From Suicoccus acidiformans (GTDB lineage Bacteria; Bacillota; Bacilli; Lactobacillales; Aerococcaceae), in assembly GCF_003546865.1 (NCBI RefSeq), contig NZ_CP023434.1:1674001-1738000 (forward strand): a stretch of DNA of 64,000 bases. The letters run 5' to 3'. Positions 4,917-56,837 of the stretch are shown one piece after another. Numbering within the stretch: the stretch's first letter is position 1; every line of letters starts with the position of its first letter. The translations under genes were made by a program, and so were the position numbers. Under the pieces are notes generated by a model. That model was not told the origin of the DNA. It made no database searches and worked only from the letters and a program-made list of their open reading frames with translations.

Positions 4917-6956
4917 TTAAAATTTACTAATTAAGGCGCGTGCATCTACTAAATTAAGTATCCATTGACTCAAGTTCGCTAAGGTTACTTGACGATTGTG
5001 GCGGATTGTGGCATCTTCAGCATTCACCATATTATTTTCGAAATAATCACTAATCACTGGCACCAAGTCATGCAATTGTTGAAGTTGCTCAGCAATTGAA
5101 CCTTCTTGGGAAAGGTCTTGAATCGCTTGAATCAGCGCTGTTTCGGATTCTGTTTCAGCTAAGTCTGGATTCATTGCGCCGGTTATTTCGACTTGGCTAC
5201 CTAAGTTTAAGACGCGACTCATGGCTTCAACAAATTGACGATACGCTTCTGGAGCTTCCTTACGTTTCGCCTGAAGGTTTGTGGCAACTTGGATCGTCTC
5301 TAATACATTTAAGTGATTGGCTGAGGTCGCTCCTTGGATAATATCATGAGCAATGCCATCTTGTTGTAAATGCTGGATAATACGTGCTTGAATAAATTCA
5401 ATTAATTGCTGGCGCTCTGAACTTTCTGTCATTTCTTTCTCGATAACAGCTAATAAGTCAAAGTCCCACTGCTGATCCCAAATAATTTCAACTAAGCCAC
5501 TAGCTTGCCGTCTTAAGGCATATGGGTCGTTAGAACCAGTTGGAATAAGACCCGCCTGGAAGTACTGCATTAAAGTATCTAATTTATCCGCTGCTGCTAA
5601 GAGCGCACCAGCTTGAGTATCCGGTAAGGATCCGCCACTTTGGGTAGGCATATATTGGCTGCCAATCGCCTGAGCAATAGCTTTAGAAAGTCCGTAGTGT
5701 TCCCCGTACAACTCGCCAACCGTGCCTTGTAGCTCTGAGAATTCATCCACCATCAAGGTCATTAAATCATATTTATATATTTCAGCCGCTTGGCTTGCTG
5801 CTTGCCCTGCTTCAGACTCTAGTGCTCCTGTTAAATGCGGTAAGAATTGCTCTTCAATTAAAGCTTTCACACGCACTTGCTTGTCTGCTAAAGAGCCAAG
5901 TTTATAATGTTCGTTCACATGCTCCAATTTAGCAACATAAGTTTCCAATGGTAACTTCAAGTCTTCCTCATAGAAGAATAAGGCGTCTTCGAGTCGTGCC
6001 TTTAGTACTTTGAGATTCCCTTTAATAACATTCTCAATATGCTCTTCATTCCCATTGCGTACGGAAATGAAATATGGCAGCAGCTCACCCTTGGTGTCTT
6101 CCACATAGAAATAACGCTGGTGATCGCGCATCGCTGTCTTGAGTATAATACTTGGTACTTGTAAGTAATTCTCATCAAATTGCCCGTAGAAGGCGGTTGG
6201 CCATTCAACAATGGCAGTTACTTCTTCTAATAAATCAGAATCTTGGGGCACATGCCAGCCATTCTCTTGGGCAATGGCCTCAACTTGTTGACTAATAGTG
6301 TCTTGGCGCTTCTCAAAGCTTGCGATAACCTGCTCATTTCTCAAGGCACTCTCATATTCGCTCGGATGCGAAAGTTGAACATTCTTACCAATGAAGCGGT
6401 GGCCTCGTGTTTGATTACCCGCCTTCACCCCTACAAAACTTAATGGCAACACCTTTGAATTATATAAAGATATTAACCAGTGTACCGGCCGGATATAAGC
6501 TACGTCATAGTCATGCCAACGCATCGATACTGGGAAAGTCATCGCCTTGATAACTTGATCAATATCTTTCAACACTTCTTCACTAGCTAAACCTTCCACA
6601 TATTTGTCAGCAAAGACATACATCGTTCCATTCACATCTTCTTCAAGCAAATCATCCACTTCAATTCCTTGACCGCGGGCAAAACCTAAAGCTGCTTTAG
6701 TCCAGGCCCCTTGGTCATCTTTAGCAATATGTAAAGCAGGACCACGATTATGCTCTTGAATGGCTTCTTGTTGCTCTGCCAAGCCATTCACACGAACGGC
6801 TAAGCGACGAGGTGTCGCAAAGCGATCGATAGAAGTATAAGATAAACGATTCTCTTCCAGAAATGCCTCAACACGCTCCGCTAATTGATCTCTTAAGGAG
6901 AGGACAAAGCGTGCTGGAATTTCTTCCATTCCAATTTCTAATAAATAATCTGCCAT
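4917..6956 (-). CDS. glyS: Glycine--tRNA ligase beta subunit
   Basis: This is the beta chain of the alpha2beta2 glycyl-tRNA synthetase and carries tRNA recognition and an HD-like region. The protein starts MADYLLEIGMEEIPARFV, the typical GlyS N-terminus. Its 679 residues are normal for the family. An AAAGGTAGG site precedes the ATG, and only 15 bases separate it from glyQ, as expected for subunits made together. Confidence 0.97.
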   Translation of the reverse strand: MADYLLEIGMEEIPARFVLSLRDQLAERVEAFLEENRLSYTSIDRFATPRRLAVRVNGLAEQQEAIQEHNRGPALHIAKDDQGAWTKAALGFARGQGIEVDDLLEEDVNGTMYVFADKYVEGLASEEVLKDIDQVIKAMTFPVSMRWHDYDVAYIRPVHWLISLYNSKVLPLSFVGVKAGNQTRGHRFIGKNVQLSHPSEYESALRNEQVIASFEKRQDTISQQVEAIAQENGWHVPQDSDLLEEVTAIVEWPTAFYGQFDENYLQVPSIILKTAMRDHQRYFYVEDTKGELLPYFISVRNGNEEHIENVIKGNLKVLKARLEDALFFYEEDLKLPLETYVAKLEHVNEHYKLGSLADKQVRVKALIEEQFLPHLTGALESEAGQAASQAAEIYKYDLMTLMVDEFSELQGTVGELYGEHYGLSKAIAQAIGSQYMPTQSGGSLPDTQAGALLAAADKLDTLMQYFQAGLIPTGSNDPYALRRQASGLVEIIWDQQWDFDLLAVIEKEMTESSERQQLIEFIQARIIQHLQQDGIAHDIIQGATSANHLNVLETIQVATNLQAKRKEAPEAYRQFVEAMSRVLNLGSQVEITGAMNPDLAETESETALIQAIQDLSQEGSIAEQLQQLHDLVPVISDYFENNMVNAEDATIRHNRQVTLANLSQWILNLVDARALISKF

Positions 6957-49261: not shown

Positions 49262-50125
49262 TTAGAGTGACTGCTTGACCATCGTTCCTATGCCTTGTTC
49301 GGTAAATAACTCAAAAATTAATGCATGCTGAATCGTTCCATTGATAATGTGGCAACGTTCTACGCCACCTTGAACGGCTTGAGTACACGCCAGTAATTTA
49401 GGAATCATACCACCCCGAATAATGCCTGCCTCAATTAACTCATCAATCCTTGCAACATCTACTTGAGGTATTAAGGTTGAAGGCTCATGTTGATCTGCCA
49501 TCACCCCATCCACATCGGTCACAAGAATCAGCTTAGAGGCATTAAGCGCTTTGGCAATTTGCCATGCCGCTTCATCCGAGTTGATATTCAAACTCTGACC
49601 ATTCGGGCCGAAAGCAATCGGCGACACAACCGGTACATAATCGTCAGCAAGTAAATTTAATAAATAATCTGGTTGAATATGGGTAATATTACCAACCAAG
49701 CCTAATTTCTCATCCAGGTAGTCAGCTTGCATCATTTGTGCATCTTTCCCTGAAATAGACACTGCCTTAACATCAAAGGCATTCAAATCCGCTGTAATCT
49801 GCGGTGCAATTTGCCCGGTCAAAGCCATCTCCACCACTTCCATGCTTGCTTGGTCTGTAATGCGCAAACCTTGATAAAATTCACTTTGAATCCCCTTTAA
49901 AAGCAAAAGCTCATTAATCGCTGGTCCCCCTCCGTGGACGATCACCGGAAACATCCCCACATACTTTAACAAGGCAATATCTTGAATAATTGTCTTCTTC
50001 GCCTCTTCATCAACCATCGCATGTCCCCCATATTTAATGACGACAATCTTACGATGGAATTTCTTAATATACTGTAAACTCTCAATTAAAATTTCAGCTT
50101 TCTGTTGCAATGCTATCTCTTCCAT
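49262..50125 (-). CDS. argB: Acetylglutamate kinase
   Basis: ArgB phosphorylates N-acetylglutamate. KYGGHAM and VHGGGPAINELL are the nucleotide and substrate loops, and SINSDE-like residues appear as NINSDEAAWQIA. The start used is the ATG at 50125 behind GGAGGGG (287 residues); a TTG four codons earlier is less likely. It is the first gene after the arginine T-box. Confidence 0.96.
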   Translation of the reverse strand: MEEIALQQKAEILIESLQYIKKFHRKIVVIKYGGHAMVDEEAKKTIIQDIALLKYVGMFPVIVHGGGPAINELLLLKGIQSEFYQGLRITDQASMEVVEMALTGQIAPQITADLNAFDVKAVSISGKDAQMMQADYLDEKLGLVGNITHIQPDYLLNLLADDYVPVVSPIAFGPNGQSLNINSDEAAWQIAKALNASKLILVTDVDGVMADQHEPSTLIPQVDVARIDELIEAGIIRGGMIPKLLACTQAVQGGVERCHIINGTIQHALIFELFTEQGIGTMVKQSL

Positions 50126-50137
50126 ATTCCCCTCCAA

Positions 50138-50379
50138 AATAAAAAACGCCCCTATATTTACATATAGAGACGAATTGAACGCGGTACCACTCTAAGTTAA
50201 TTAGCTATCTTGACTAATTCCCTCATACAAAATAACGCTTGCTGGCGAAATTGGCTACTCACTTCACCAATTTTTCTCTGAAGTGCGCTTCACTTATACT
50301 TGCATAATAGGCTCCCAGCAACCCTATCTCGCTTGAAATTCGGTATAAGCTACTCTCTTCTTCTAAGAATTTTGTGATT
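50138..50379 (-). promoter_or_regulatory. T-box leader (tRNA-Arg) of the arg operon
   Basis: The minus strand has AGAGTGGTACCGCG near 50193-50180 and a terminator (CGTCTCTATATG...ATAGGGGCG, then TTTTTT). Stem I pairs CTTATAC with GTATAAG; the specifier loop reads TGAAGCGCA with CGC (Arg) at 50287-50285, consistent with argB/D/F/C downstream. Confidence 0.95.
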
Positions 50380-52303: not shown

Positions 52304-53443
52304 TCATCCTTTCCCTTTCATTTGTGTAACCTTAGGTAACGCTTGAATAAAGGCCGTTATATCTGCTTGCGTCGTTGTATGCGATAAACTGAGCCGAATA
52401 GCAGAATTAGATATATTACTAGACACCCTCATGGCATTAAGGGTTGCATGGGGATTATGACTACGACTGCTACACGCACTAGTCGTTGATACAAATATCC
52501 CCATCCTTTCAAAAGCGTGTAGCAACACCTCGCCAGGAATCGGCGGTAAGGCTGCACATACAATGTGGGTGCTGGTATAAGCCCCACCGAAAATTTGCCA
52601 ACCTGCTTCTTCCAAGGCGGTTACAAGTTGTACTCGGAAGTCATGCAAGCGTCTTCGTGCCTCTGCCTGAGCATCATCCGCCAAACGGAGGGCTTTCGCC
52701 GAGGCAACAATCGCAGGTAAATTCTCAGTAGAGCTGCGTTGGCCTGCTTCTTGACCCCCACCGTAAAGGAGTGGGTAACTTGCCACTCGTTCTTTCTTAA
52801 CCAGAACTCCGACCCCACGAAGTCCGTGAAATTTATGCGCAGATAAGGTAAGTAAATCGATGCGTTTATTCCTCAATAATTCCAACTCAGTCGTTACAGC
52901 TTGTACCCCATCTACATGCCAAATAAGTTGAGGGTAGTCAGCAATTATCTCGGCAATCGCAGCCAGGGGTTGCACTGTCCCAACCTCATTATTTACCGCC
53001 ATGGTAGATAATAAGAGAACATGTTCATCGAGCATATCTCTTAACTTATCTGTATCCAGCCTTCCCCATTGGTCCACCGGTACTAAGTCCACATCATAAC
53101 CCTTCCTTTGCAAAAGTTCTATTTGCTGCAAAGAAGCGGGATGTTCAATCGCTGATAGCAGAACTCGCTTGCGGTCTGTATTCTTACTATGTAAAGCATC
53201 AACAATCCCTTGCAGAACCCAATTATTTGCTTCAGTCCCACTAGCTGTAAAGTAGACTTCATCCGCTCTAACCTTTAAGATTTGCGCTATTTGTTGGCGC
53301 GCTTGCTTTAGTAACGCACTAGCTTCTTCACCGAGCTGATGAGCACTTGATGGATTGGCGAAATATCTCTCAGCTACGGTTCCAGCCGTTTCAATTACTT
53401 CAGGATACGGCTTGGTCGTTGCACTATTATCTAAGTAAATCAT
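52304..53443 (-). CDS. Cysteine desulfurase paired with ThiI (NifS/NifZ type)
   Basis: This PLP enzyme releases sulfur from cysteine for transfer to ThiI. The protein begins MIYLDNSATTKPYPEV, has the PLP lysine in SAHKFHGLRGVG and the active Cys in STTSACSSRSH. Length is 379 residues. A desulfurase directly upstream of thiI is the dedicated tRNA-thiolation pair in Firmicutes (NifZ in B. subtilis). Confidence 0.94.
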   Translation of the reverse strand: MIYLDNSATTKPYPEVIETAGTVAERYFANPSSAHQLGEEASALLKQARQQIAQILKVRADEVYFTASGTEANNWVLQGIVDALHSKNTDRKRVLLSAIEHPASLQQIELLQRKGYDVDLVPVDQWGRLDTDKLRDMLDEHVLLLSTMAVNNEVGTVQPLAAIAEIIADYPQLIWHVDGVQAVTTELELLRNKRIDLLTLSAHKFHGLRGVGVLVKKERVASYPLLYGGGQEAGQRSSTENLPAIVASAKALRLADDAQAEARRRLHDFRVQLVTALEEAGWQIFGGAYTSTHIVCAALPPIPGEVLLHAFERMGIFVSTTSACSSRSHNPHATLNAMRVSSNISNSAIRLSLSHTTTQADITAFIQALPKVTQMKGKG

Positions 53444-53558: not shown

Positions 53559-53587
53559 TTGCACTCCGGCTCAATACATGCTATGAT
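53559..53587 (+). promoter_or_regulatory. Promoter of the fluoride riboswitch transcript
   Basis: TTGCAC (53559-53564), 17 bases, TATGAT (53582-53587) with a TGC extension directly before the -10. Confidence 0.75.
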
Positions 53588-53605
53588 AGCTTTAGTTTCA
53601 TAAAC

Positions 53606-53698
53606 GGGAATGAGGTTCTCCCGAAGTTAGATATAACTTAAACCGCTGATAAGCTGATGACTTCTGTGATTATATCGCACAGAAAATCGGCTTTTTTT
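53606..53698 (+). promoter_or_regulatory. Fluoride riboswitch (crcB motif) with terminator
   Basis: GGGAATGAGGTTCTCCC (53606-53622) and AACCGCTGATAAGC followed by TGATGACTTCT (53641-53665) match the two conserved parts of the crcB/fluoride aptamer. The pseudoknot pairing GAGGT with ACTTC is present with one wobble. An optional short hairpin (AAGTT/AACTT) separates the parts. A terminator (GCTGAT...ATCGGC and TTCTGTG/CACAGAA, then seven T) reuses the 3' half of the aptamer, so fluoride binding should allow read-through. Confidence 0.93.
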
Positions 53699-53717
53699 GT
53701 GCTTAAGGAGGAAAAAT

Positions 53718-54902
53718 ATGTTATTAAGTGTTGCTTTAATATTGTTAGGTGGAATTGTGTTAGGCGCCTTATTTCGGCGAAGCAACCTACCAGAACTCAT
53801 TGGTATGATGTTAGCCGGGATTATCTTAGGGCCCTATGTGTTAAATTGGTTGGATATAAACATTCTCGAGATTTCTGCAGAGCTTAGAAGTATGGCCTTA
53901 GTTATTATTCTTACCCGGGCAGGTTTAGGATTGAATATTTCTCAATTGAAGAGCCTGGGACGCCCTGCTGTATTGATGTGCTTTCTGCCTGCCTTCTTTG
54001 AAATTGCAGGAATTACGCTATTTGGTCCCCATTTATTACGCTTATCTTTCTTAGAGTCAGCCCTACTTGGCTCCGTCTTAGCAGCAGTCTCGCCTGCAGT
54101 GGTCGTACCTCGTATGGTCAATTTAATGGAGAAAGGCTACGGCGAAGCGAAGGGTATCCCCCAATTAGTCTTAGCTGGGGCTTCCGTTGACGATGTTGTG
54201 GTGATGGTCCTCTTCTCAACATTTCTGGCCATGATGCAAGGGCAAGGGGTTTCTATTATAAGTTTCGTCAACGTTCCCTTCTCCATTCTAGCCGGTGCTC
54301 TCATGGGTATGTTGCTAGGGCTAGTATTATCTAAGTGGGTCCATGGAAGCACCCCTCAAAGCGTGTATGCTTTCTTGATTCTTTTAAGCCTATCTTTTAT
54401 GCTAGTCGCTACGGAAAATTCACTAAATACGTCACTAACTTTCTCAGCCTACATTGCGATTATATTTCTTGGCGTCGCCATCCAACGCTATGCCCCTGAT
54501 TGGAGCGTTGAATTATCTCAAATTTATAATAACCTTTGGATACCCGGACAGATTTTCCTTTTTGCCCTTTTAGGCTCAAGTGTAGATATTAATTACCTAC
54601 CTCAGGTTGGCTGGCAGGCCCTTCTTTTAATTGCTGTTGGTTTGGCCTTTAGAATGGTTGGCGTGCTGATTTGCCTGCTTCAAACGAATTTCACACAGAA
54701 AGAGAAACTATTTACCATGATTGCCTACACCCCTAAAGCAACCGTCCAAGCAGCTATTGGTGGCATTCCTTTGAGTTTAGGTCTTGCATCAGGAGAAACG
54801 ATCTTGGCTGTCGCTGTTCTCTCAATCATTGTCACGGCTCCCCTTGGCGCCTTTGCGATTGATTCAACATATTCTAAACTTTTAGAAAAGCCTAATCACT
54901 AA
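53718..54902 (+). CDS. CPA2-type cation/proton antiporter, predicted fluoride-resistance transporter
   Basis: This integral membrane protein of 394 residues has about 12 hydrophobic segments and the sodium/proton-exchanger fold. It shows LGALFRRSNLPELIGMMLAG at the N-terminus and LTRAGLGLNISQLK in the first repeat. The VSPAVVVPRMV segment fits the ion-binding region. No Kef-type RCK domain follows. The gene lies directly behind a fluoride riboswitch. Antiporters of this general type are among known fluoride-riboswitch targets, so a role in fluoride tolerance is likely. AAGGAGG precedes the ATG. Confidence 0.9.
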   Translation: MLLSVALILLGGIVLGALFRRSNLPELIGMMLAGIILGPYVLNWLDINILEISAELRSMALVIILTRAGLGLNISQLKSLGRPAVLMCFLPAFFEIAGITLFGPHLLRLSFLESALLGSVLAAVSPAVVVPRMVNLMEKGYGEAKGIPQLVLAGASVDDVVVMVLFSTFLAMMQGQGVSIISFVNVPFSILAGALMGMLLGLVLSKWVHGSTPQSVYAFLILLSLSFMLVATENSLNTSLTFSAYIAIIFLGVAIQRYAPDWSVELSQIYNNLWIPGQIFLFALLGSSVDINYLPQVGWQALLLIAVGLAFRMVGVLICLLQTNFTQKEKLFTMIAYTPKATVQAAIGGIPLSLGLASGETILAVAVLSIIVTAPLGAFAIDSTYSKLLEKPNH

Positions 54903-54933
54903 TACTTTCTCCACTTCGAACCCCGTCAAAAGA

Positions 54934-54978
54934 AAAGACTTTCGCAACCTGATAAAAGGTACGAAAGTCTTTCTTTGT
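54934..54978. terminator. Bidirectional terminator between the antiporter gene and ezrA
   Basis: AAAGACTTTCG (54934-54944) pairs with CGAAAGTCTTT (54962-54972), with an inner ACCT/AGGT pair and T-rich tails. Confidence 0.87.
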
Positions 54979-54986
54979 TAATTACT

Positions 54987-56705
54987 TTAATAGTATCCGC
55001 GTTGCTTCTCTTGATGATACATCCGGCGAACTTGGGTCGGTCCGTCTTGATCTACACGACGAAGGGCCCGTTCAATAACGTTCAATGACTCTTCATATTG
55101 ATATTCATCATAGAATAAATACTCAGCTTCGCGAATCGCTTCATCCATCTCTGGATATTCAAAGCGGAAACGATTACTATGCTGAATCATATATTCAGTT
55201 AAAGTCGCACTATCAACAATCGTTTCAGTCATGGTCTCTAATTTCGCAAGATTCTCTTCTAACTGGCGTTCGAGTTGCTCAATTTCAAGCATATCTACCC
55301 GAACACGATTCAACTGTTGAGATAAGTGCTCAATTTGATCAGTCACTTGGTAGAACTTGGCATAATAACCTTCGGTCAAGCCAGGTAGATGATGTTTTTC
55401 AATATCGCGTTTTAAGTTGCGTAATTCTAATTCAAATAAATCAAGATTTACTTTTGCTTCTTTCTCGCGACTTGTTAATTTAGATAAGCGATCAATAATC
55501 ACTTGTTGTTCCTTATCTATTTCATCAAGTCGTTTGTCTATTTTACGAAGTTGATCAGATACCTTTGTATAGACTGCTTCTTTAGCATCTAATTCATGGG
55601 CAATAGCTTGGAAACGCTCAAGTTCTTTATGTAATTGTTGGCTTAAATTAGCTACTTGTTCTACTTCATTCTCATGAAGGATATAGCTTTGTTCAATCCG
55701 ATCCACTTCAATACTAGCATAGCGCAGATGTTCTTGAACATCTTCAAATTTCTGCTTCAGCTGATTAATGTGCGAATTAACAAATTCCTTAGCAGCTATT
55801 TCTGCTTCCATAAAATCATACAGGGAATCAATTTCACGGTCGGCCTTATCCATTTCGGTCTGGGCATCGGCTAAGTCTGCCTGTTTTATTTGCTGCTTAG
55901 CTTCATTTAAGCGTTCTTGAATTTGTTCAATTTCTTCAAGAATATCCATCCCTTCGAAATTGTAAGAACTATCTACCATCCGTTGATAACCTGTCCGCAA
56001 ATCTTCAAGCGAATCTTCATAGTCATTCTTAATCGTATCATACATCTTCGGAATCTTCACAAGAATATCTTCAAGACTAGATAAGTCCGCTTCGATTGTA
56101 TCGAGCATCCCTTCTGCTTCAAGATAATCTCCTTCAGACGTAAGTTCATTATAGCGTGTGAAGTTCAGTTCTAAGTATTGTAAATTCTTCTCAAGAATTT
56201 CAATGGCTGGTCCATAATCAAAGCTGTGATTATTAATACTCTTACGTGCTTCATTGTAACGCTCTAAGTAGGCTTCATGCCGTTCACGGTTAGCTTCAGG
56301 AACTTCTAATAAGGCTTCAACGCCTGTTTCAAGATTAGCAACTTGGGCTTCGACTTCTTCAAGAATTTCACGTGCTTCATCAATTGCGCTTTTAGCCTTA
56401 ACTAGATTCATCTGCTCCGTATACTGGTCGGCACCGACTAAGGTCGCATCAATTTCCGCCATTTGGAAATTAGTTACCGTCTGCCAGCTCGCATTCAAGC
56501 TCTCATACTGCCGTTTCGTTTGTCCTGATAAATCCATATTCTTGAGAGTGAATAGGTGATCCGGCACTGAGGTATCCATTAAGATGGCCTTACGATCGTC
56601 TAATTCGTTTATCTCCTTATTCCGCTGTGTCTTAAAGTAATAAACCACACCTAACACAACGACAAAAAGGATTACGATAATAAATAATATATCTGTAAAT
56701 GTCAT
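54987..56705 (-). CDS. ezrA: Septation ring formation regulator EzrA
   Basis: EzrA is a membrane-anchored spectrin-like protein that controls Z-ring placement and links division to cell-wall synthesis. One N-terminal membrane segment (DILFIIVILFVVVLGVVYYF) is followed by about 540 residues of helical coiled coil. The start is the ATG at 56705 behind GAGGAGCG (572 residues, the family length); a longer reading adds a hydrophilic stretch before the anchor and is unlikely. Confidence 0.95.
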   Translation of the reverse strand: MTFTDILFIIVILFVVVLGVVYYFKTQRNKEINELDDRKAILMDTSVPDHLFTLKNMDLSGQTKRQYESLNASWQTVTNFQMAEIDATLVGADQYTEQMNLVKAKSAIDEAREILEEVEAQVANLETGVEALLEVPEANRERHEAYLERYNEARKSINNHSFDYGPAIEILEKNLQYLELNFTRYNELTSEGDYLEAEGMLDTIEADLSSLEDILVKIPKMYDTIKNDYEDSLEDLRTGYQRMVDSSYNFEGMDILEEIEQIQERLNEAKQQIKQADLADAQTEMDKADREIDSLYDFMEAEIAAKEFVNSHINQLKQKFEDVQEHLRYASIEVDRIEQSYILHENEVEQVANLSQQLHKELERFQAIAHELDAKEAVYTKVSDQLRKIDKRLDEIDKEQQVIIDRLSKLTSREKEAKVNLDLFELELRNLKRDIEKHHLPGLTEGYYAKFYQVTDQIEHLSQQLNRVRVDMLEIEQLERQLEENLAKLETMTETIVDSATLTEYMIQHSNRFRFEYPEMDEAIREAEYLFYDEYQYEESLNVIERALRRVDQDGPTQVRRMYHQEKQRGYY

Positions 56706-56837
56706 ATGTTCGCTCCTCTTCTGTCGATTTCGCCACCTTATTGTGCGATAAATGTTTACTGTCACCCCACATTATAGCATTCAAATAGGGATAATTAAAG
56801 GGCTTACCTCCAAAAAGATAAATTCCTCTTTTGACAA

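Follow-up and report, generated by a model that had tools for sequence, protein, structure and literature searches.

What does a cation/proton antiporter do when it is the gene that follows a fluoride riboswitch, and could it take the place of a fluoride exporter? The question is raised by one leader and one gene in the window, the stretch of 64,000 nucleotides of Suicoccus acidiformans contig NZ_CP023434.1 that was analysed here. According to the accessible part of a 2024 review, Na+/H+ antiporters are the commonest riboswitch-associated class after the fluoride exporters and are interpreted in terms of pH homeostasis; the pairing of fluoride riboswitch and Na+/H+ antiporter is already published there and is not new (PMC11139923). 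The exporters named in the accessible parts of the cited literature are CrcB/Fluc/FEX and CLC-F. No CPA protein named as a fluoride exporter was found in a literature search that was made mostly without subscription papers and without bioRxiv, and within the same limits (few subscription papers, no bioRxiv) group-wide riboswitch wiring together with near-absence of CrcB was not found reported. Going beyond the first-pass annotation of this DNA, the sequences suggest that these antiporters form a single group that is tied to fluoride across several phyla and hardly ever occurs alongside CrcB.

At the level of the leader, the first-pass annotation had recognized the conserved blocks of the crcB-motif aptamer, and the Rfam covariance model agrees: RF01734 matches the plus strand at 53597-53673, where model positions 1-64 of 64 are all covered, with 47.5 bits by cmscan against a gathering threshold of 34 (E-values 4.7e-10 for the window and 1.9e-12 for a 261-nt stretch). 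The P1 stem-loop (53606-53622, plus strand, from Rfam alignment and fold) pairs 53606-53609 with 53619-53622 and carries GAGGT (53612-53616) in its loop. It is followed by the conserved AACCGC / P3 / GCTGATGACTTC block (53641-53664, plus strand), with P3 strands at 53645-53647 and 53652-53654, the strands of both stems being taken from a reading of the sequence and the Rfam alignment. The block ends in ACTTC (53660-53664), the 3' half of the pseudoknot that had been described as retained; both of its strands are in place, and five pairs, one of them G-U, can be read between them. An extra 6-bp hairpin (53624-53639, plus strand, from Rfam alignment and fold), unmentioned in the earlier description, is inserted between P1 and AACCGC; it is the sole long insertion of the match and is missing from the Rfam consensus.

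The terminator had been proposed to be built from the 3' half of the aptamer, and this is how it folds. The element spans 53651-53698 on the plus strand, with a hairpin at 53651-53693 that has a 9-nt loop and bulges, and a tract of seven T at 53692-53698; the fold of 53651-53699 reaches -16 kcal/mol (z -4.7) and is equalled by none of 200 shuffles. Its 5' arm is made up of the 3' strand of P3, the GATGA block and the ACTTC half of the pseudoknot. Because this arm shares the 3' strand of the aptamer, the ligand-bound aptamer and the terminator are mutually exclusive, and by the usual logic of the class we infer that aptamer and competing terminator (53597-53698) act as an ON switch. A possible promoter, TTGCAC - 17 nt - TATGAT, can be read upstream (53559-53587, plus strand), with TG one base ahead of the -10 (extended -10). 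Neither this promoter nor the terminator was listed by a simple consensus promoter/terminator scan, and for both the calls come from sequence reading and folding; the terminator was probably missed because its 9-nt loop and bulges lie outside the scan's pattern, and the promoter, being absent from the scan, is therefore only suggestive. A ribosome-binding site, AAGGAGG (53705-53711, plus strand), stands ahead of the start codon, ATG at 53718.

The gene (53718-54902, plus strand) encodes a 394-aa exchanger of the CPA superfamily, of the cation/proton type and NHA2/SLC9B-like, with a Pfam PF00999 (Na_H_Exchanger) match of 133.8 bits. The flanking long open reading frames (52304-53443 and 54987-56765) are on the strand opposite to the antiporter, and a strong hairpin terminator, for which no strand is assigned, lies between it and the convergent gene (54929-54976; fold -21 kcal/mol, z -5.4), so the unit is one gene, as had been stated. 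With riboswitch, terminator and single gene in line, the sequence supports the earlier claim of a fluoride riboswitch in control of a lone antiporter. Elsewhere in the window a T-box leader (50163-50374, minus strand, 125.5 bits) lies just upstream of a minus-strand open reading frame (49262-50137), which would encode a putative amino-acid kinase of arginine synthesis.

Pfam lists PF00999 and no other family for the window protein, with no match to CrcB/Fluc (PF02537) or to the CLC family (PF00654) that would indicate CLC-F, and an NCBIfam search returned only matches far below the cut-offs. Human and bison NHA2 are the solved chains nearest to it in sequence (best phmmer hit in the PDB 7b4l, 1e-40; 7.7e-66 with a profile). 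The AlphaFold2 model (pLDDT 83.7, pTM 0.80) can be aligned with Na+/H+ exchangers along its whole length: judged on structure alone, archaeal NhaP antiporters rank at the top (Z 46.1 and 42.9), and the NHA2 chains follow with Z 34.6-39.6 and rmsd 3.3-3.6 over 380-390 aligned residues, at the highest identity (31-32%). The ion-site residues of the window protein are E95, D158, D159, R312 and K340, the lysine of PKATVQAA, and they align with E214, D277, D278, R431 and K459 of NHA2 in bison numbering. The roles of these residues are taken from the accessible part of a study of NHA2, which describes that protein as electroneutral despite its DD motif (PMC8850199). These five residues, together with P126 and Y337, are jointly intact in 164 of 167 sequences.

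Exceptions are found among riboswitch-linked copies. In the homologue on pAQ7 of Picosynechococcus PCC 7002, a cyanobacterium amenable to laboratory work (L304:3765-5560; SYNPCC7002_RS15580), which also carries a C-terminal extension, Ser replaces the first Asp, so even the DD pair is not strictly kept. In one further sequence (L274, genome G481) both Asp and the Lys are absent as aligned, with EPGNRYG for EPDDRYK, which could stem from decay, from a mistake in assembly or alignment, or from a different function.

Linkage between riboswitch and antiporter extends well beyond the window. In the sample of the family (76 genomes), 58 genomes have the antiporter, including one split into two frames and counted as present (G055); G011 gives a 59th match, which is a weak paralog. 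RF01734 lies on the same strand 43-220 nt upstream of 46 of these 58 antiporters (44 of the 46 above the Rfam cut-off), and these 46 are among 54 RF01734 matches in the whole family. A named set, made up of the 80 top-scoring relatives out of at least 549 in a scan of genome contigs, comes mostly from Lachnospiraceae and other Clostridia, and also from Erysipelotrichaceae, Megasphaera, Brachyspira and others. Within this top 80 of at least 549, a riboswitch is found 34-233 nt upstream in 63, the weakest one counted scoring 24.3 bits (L234) and one that lies 2.2 kb upstream being left uncounted (L180). The third sample contains 363 genomes of Clostridia, 61 of them with the antiporter at an E-value of 1e-30 or better, some fragments included; the matches fall at 65 places, of which 60, in 57 genomes, were examined, and 49 of the 60 genes have a riboswitch upstream. 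Scans of the named and Clostridia sets, which have genomes G373 and G413 in common, used a model (R1) built from Rfam-found aptamers, and Rfam itself found the riboswitch at 17 of the 20 Clostridia loci given to it. At control loci (28 other-CPA, 8 CrcB in the family and 12 canonical CLC) there were 0 riboswitch matches. No upstream riboswitch was found for 12 of 58 genes in the family, 17 of 80 in the named set (again the best 80 of at least 549) and 11 of 60 in Clostridia.

On a FastTree phylogeny of 172 rows, the riboswitch label requires 29 changes, where shuffled labels need 32.9 on average and 7 of 500 shuffles are as low. The label clusters only slightly more than under shuffling, and linkage is patchy at the tips; no history of gain and loss is drawn from the tree. 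The group, or clade, is here the set bounded by profile score, and long branches make the deep order of the tree unsafe. In the class sample of Bacilli (299 genomes) the antiporter occurs in two only, at 566 and 496 bits; paralogs of at most 68 bits come next, and CrcB occurs in 267; with two carriers in 299, no contingency table is given for this sample.

Some copies are on plasmid records. Megablast of the unit against plasmids returned nothing; 796 plasmid records match the antiporter query, mostly from Klebsiella and Escherichia, of which just 10 cover at least 80% of it. Four of these 10 were examined (Acetoanaerobium, Ilyobacter, Cetobacterium and Picosynechococcus PCC 7002), and all four have the riboswitch. 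A 182-aa antiporter piece adjoins rmtB on a Klebsiella NDM plasmid (L301:7019-7567; NZ_CP080366.1 20371-20919), 48% identical over query positions 204-391, and may have a bearing on the origin of rmtB. A search of phages gave one unannotated record, MT837274.1 (7.3 kb, Bacteriophage sp., human faeces), with a 50% identical antiporter at 5524-6654; this record may be bacterial DNA.

The architecture of the leader is also shared by the relatives. A T run and a hairpin using the aptamer 3' strand are present in 66 of 76 antiporter leaders tested, the other 10 having no T run; 31 of these leaders were controlled by shuffling, and in 31 of 31 at most one of 100 shuffles was as good. Parsing succeeded for 108 of 117 leaders and failed for 9. 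An insert of at least 8 nt between P1 and AACCGC occurs in 92 of the 108, and it folds better than the mean of its own shuffles in 85 of the 92. Nineteen Bacilli aptamers from outside the family (alignment A2) have 2-4 nt at this site, by eye. At two CLC-F loci in the family the riboswitch matches are also long (68-76 nt against the 64-nt consensus), so the insert may track lineage and not the target gene.

The genome of the window (G000; one contig, 2.57 Mb, 99% complete) has a single fluoride riboswitch, the antiporter leader. The first-pass annotation had suggested a search for crcB and clcF in the rest of this genome; no CrcB match and no CLC of any kind were found, which favours its interpretation. 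Mutual exclusion of crcB and eriC was reportedly used as an argument by Baker in 2012. For the antiporter, CrcB was found in none of the 58 family genomes with it and in 9 of the 18 without it (Fisher 3e-7; 9 of 76 in total, 8 over the cut-off), and in 1 of 61 Clostridia genomes with it and 75 of 302 without it (Fisher 4e-6); these tests treat related genomes as independent, on counts uncorrected for phylogeny, so lineage may account for part of the CrcB pattern. Genomes of both kinds are present in genera g3 and g14, and there the pattern is followed. In the named set, CrcB was over the cut-off in none of 50 antiporter genomes (from the best 80 of at least 549), with one weak match of 21 bits. 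The single overlap, in the Clostridia genome G742, involves one of three outlying antiporters (327-340 bits, L297-L299), and another of the three, L298, has a CLC-F gene beside it in divergent orientation. These three may be accessory, as in the published pH-balance view.

CLC proteins of the family were divided by motif and score, the canonical ones having GSGIP, GREGP or GRGGP, and CLC-F having GREGV or GREGS (once GRVGV, in G026) together with GGEVTP; one CLC-F matches the solved CLC-F 6d0j at 5e-111. By this division 19 family genomes have CLC-F, the motif having been read in 13 of them and the other six (G060, G064-G068) assigned by score band alone. Two family CLC-F loci, L081 (G062) and L083 (G009), have fluoride riboswitches, the gene at L081 having one on either side. 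CLC-F is present in 14 of 58 family genomes with the antiporter and 5 of 18 without it (Fisher 0.76), so the antiporter is not always alone. The distribution is complementary to CrcB but, in the family, where this comparison was made, not to CLC-F. Genus g19 goes against the pattern, with CLC-F in 9 of 11 antiporter genomes; neither exporter occurs in its two antiporter-free genomes, of which one is only 51% complete. Except at L298, neither CLC-F nor CrcB was found in the flanks scanned at 170 antiporter loci, which extended 1.5 kb in each direction at 30 loci, as much as 4 kb at 80 and 1.5 kb upstream only at 60, and less where contigs end.

On balance we lean towards a reading in which the ON switch drives an NHA2-like cation/proton exchanger that stands in for a fluoride exporter and acts through cations and protons. 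Judged from the anatomy of the leader and the known riboswitch class, without fluoride the terminator (53651-53693) would form and transcription would stop; with fluoride, aptamer and pseudoknot would keep the shared strand out of the terminator, and the antiporter would be made. The product would be a dedicated NHA2-like exchanger, probably electroneutral, and the cell's main fluoride-resistance transporter, replacing CrcB/Fluc and CLC-F. Its most likely route would be through cations and protons rather than carriage of F- itself. Accumulation of a weak acid follows the pH difference across the membrane. Protons taken in against Na+ or K+ sent out would reduce the pH difference by which F- is kept inside the cytoplasm, and fluoride would exit as HF; alternatively, the exchanger may repair an ion balance disturbed by HF entry. 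Conservation of the ion-site residues speaks for cation/proton exchange, while riboswitch wiring and near-absence of CrcB speak for a gene sufficient for fluoride resistance, and the two are compatible if the exchanger removes the F--trapping pH difference, because weak-acid accumulation depends on that difference. A point against this mechanism is that a proton-importing cation exchanger would add to the acid load brought by HF.

Possible, with a clearly smaller share of our confidence, is that the antiporter itself exports fluoride, by F-/H+ antiport or coupled to a cation, on the NhaA fold and as a third family besides CrcB/Fluc/FEX and CLC-F. It is at most tentatively, then, that one could speak of a third family of fluoride exporters, usually riboswitch-controlled and replacing CrcB, in Bacillota, Fusobacteriota, Spirochaetota and Cyanobacteriota. 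Direct export would fit a gene that is usually a riboswitch target and almost never accompanied by CrcB, that is the only riboswitch target found in the window genome, and whose cyanobacterial riboswitch-linked homologue has Ser for the first Asp. It would also fit the fact that neither CrcB nor CLC-F is present in 44 of 58 antiporter genomes, whereas 14 of the 18 others have one or the other (Fisher 1e-4, with related genomes again treated as independent). However, 164 of 167 sequences retain the cation/proton residues of NHA2, the closest solved relatives are sodium/proton exchangers, no fluoride-binding signature was recognized in the sequence, and CLC-F is not excluded from the antiporter genomes of the family.

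Still less probable is a helper role, in which fluoride induces a general Na+/H+ antiporter that keeps pH or sodium in balance, while fluoride itself is tolerated, or is removed by something unrecognized. This matches the published view of riboswitch-linked antiporters, as given in the accessible part of the review (PMC11139923), and has a parallel in Clostridioides difficile, where the available text places a riboswitch ahead of an operon of a CLC protein and an NhaP-type antiporter (PMC11477304); the 14 family genomes in which CLC-F and antiporter co-occur and the divergent pair at L298 point the same way. A helper role leaves unexplained both the near-absence of CrcB from antiporter genomes and a window genome without CrcB or CLC, and in the short flanks scanned at the 170 loci, L298 apart, no CLC-F or CrcB was found. 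Finally, that the window aptamer is a chance match and not a working riboswitch is highly improbable: its 47.5 bits are modest beside the 19 matches of more than 60 bits in the Bacilli class sample, but the aptamer is conserved in place and orientation ahead of related antiporters in several phyla and its 3' strand is overlapped by the terminator.

If the exchanger group does the exporters' job, whether as stand-in or as exporter, many anaerobes that are seemingly defenceless against fluoride would be protected, either by a new mechanism of fluoride transport or by a purely ionic expulsion of a weak acid. With laboratory strains the published pH-balance view of riboswitch-linked antiporters becomes directly testable, and NHA2-like exchangers may be an overlooked bacterial route to fluoride survival.

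Compared with known systems, the window leader shares with the crcB motif (RF01734) the conserved blocks, P1, P3, the pseudoknot strands and control through a terminator; it differs in the short extra hairpin ahead of AACCGC and in its target, an antiporter and not CrcB or CLC-F. The protein shares with NHA2/SLC9B2, a sodium(lithium)/proton exchanger, the DD motif, the Glu/Arg pair, PKATVQAA and the overall fold, but it is bacterial, is shorter (394 aa, against 535-537 aa for the NHA2 chains), has Tyr where bison NHA2 has Trp456 and lies under a fluoride riboswitch. In the accessible part of its description, the CD0656-7 operon of C. difficile likewise joins a fluoride riboswitch to a CPA-type antiporter, which there follows a CLC gene, whereas the window antiporter is alone (PMC11477304). 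CrcB/Fluc and CLC-F are the usual targets of the fluoride riboswitch, and the antiporter possibly has the same role, though it belongs to a different protein family and occurs almost only where CrcB is missing.
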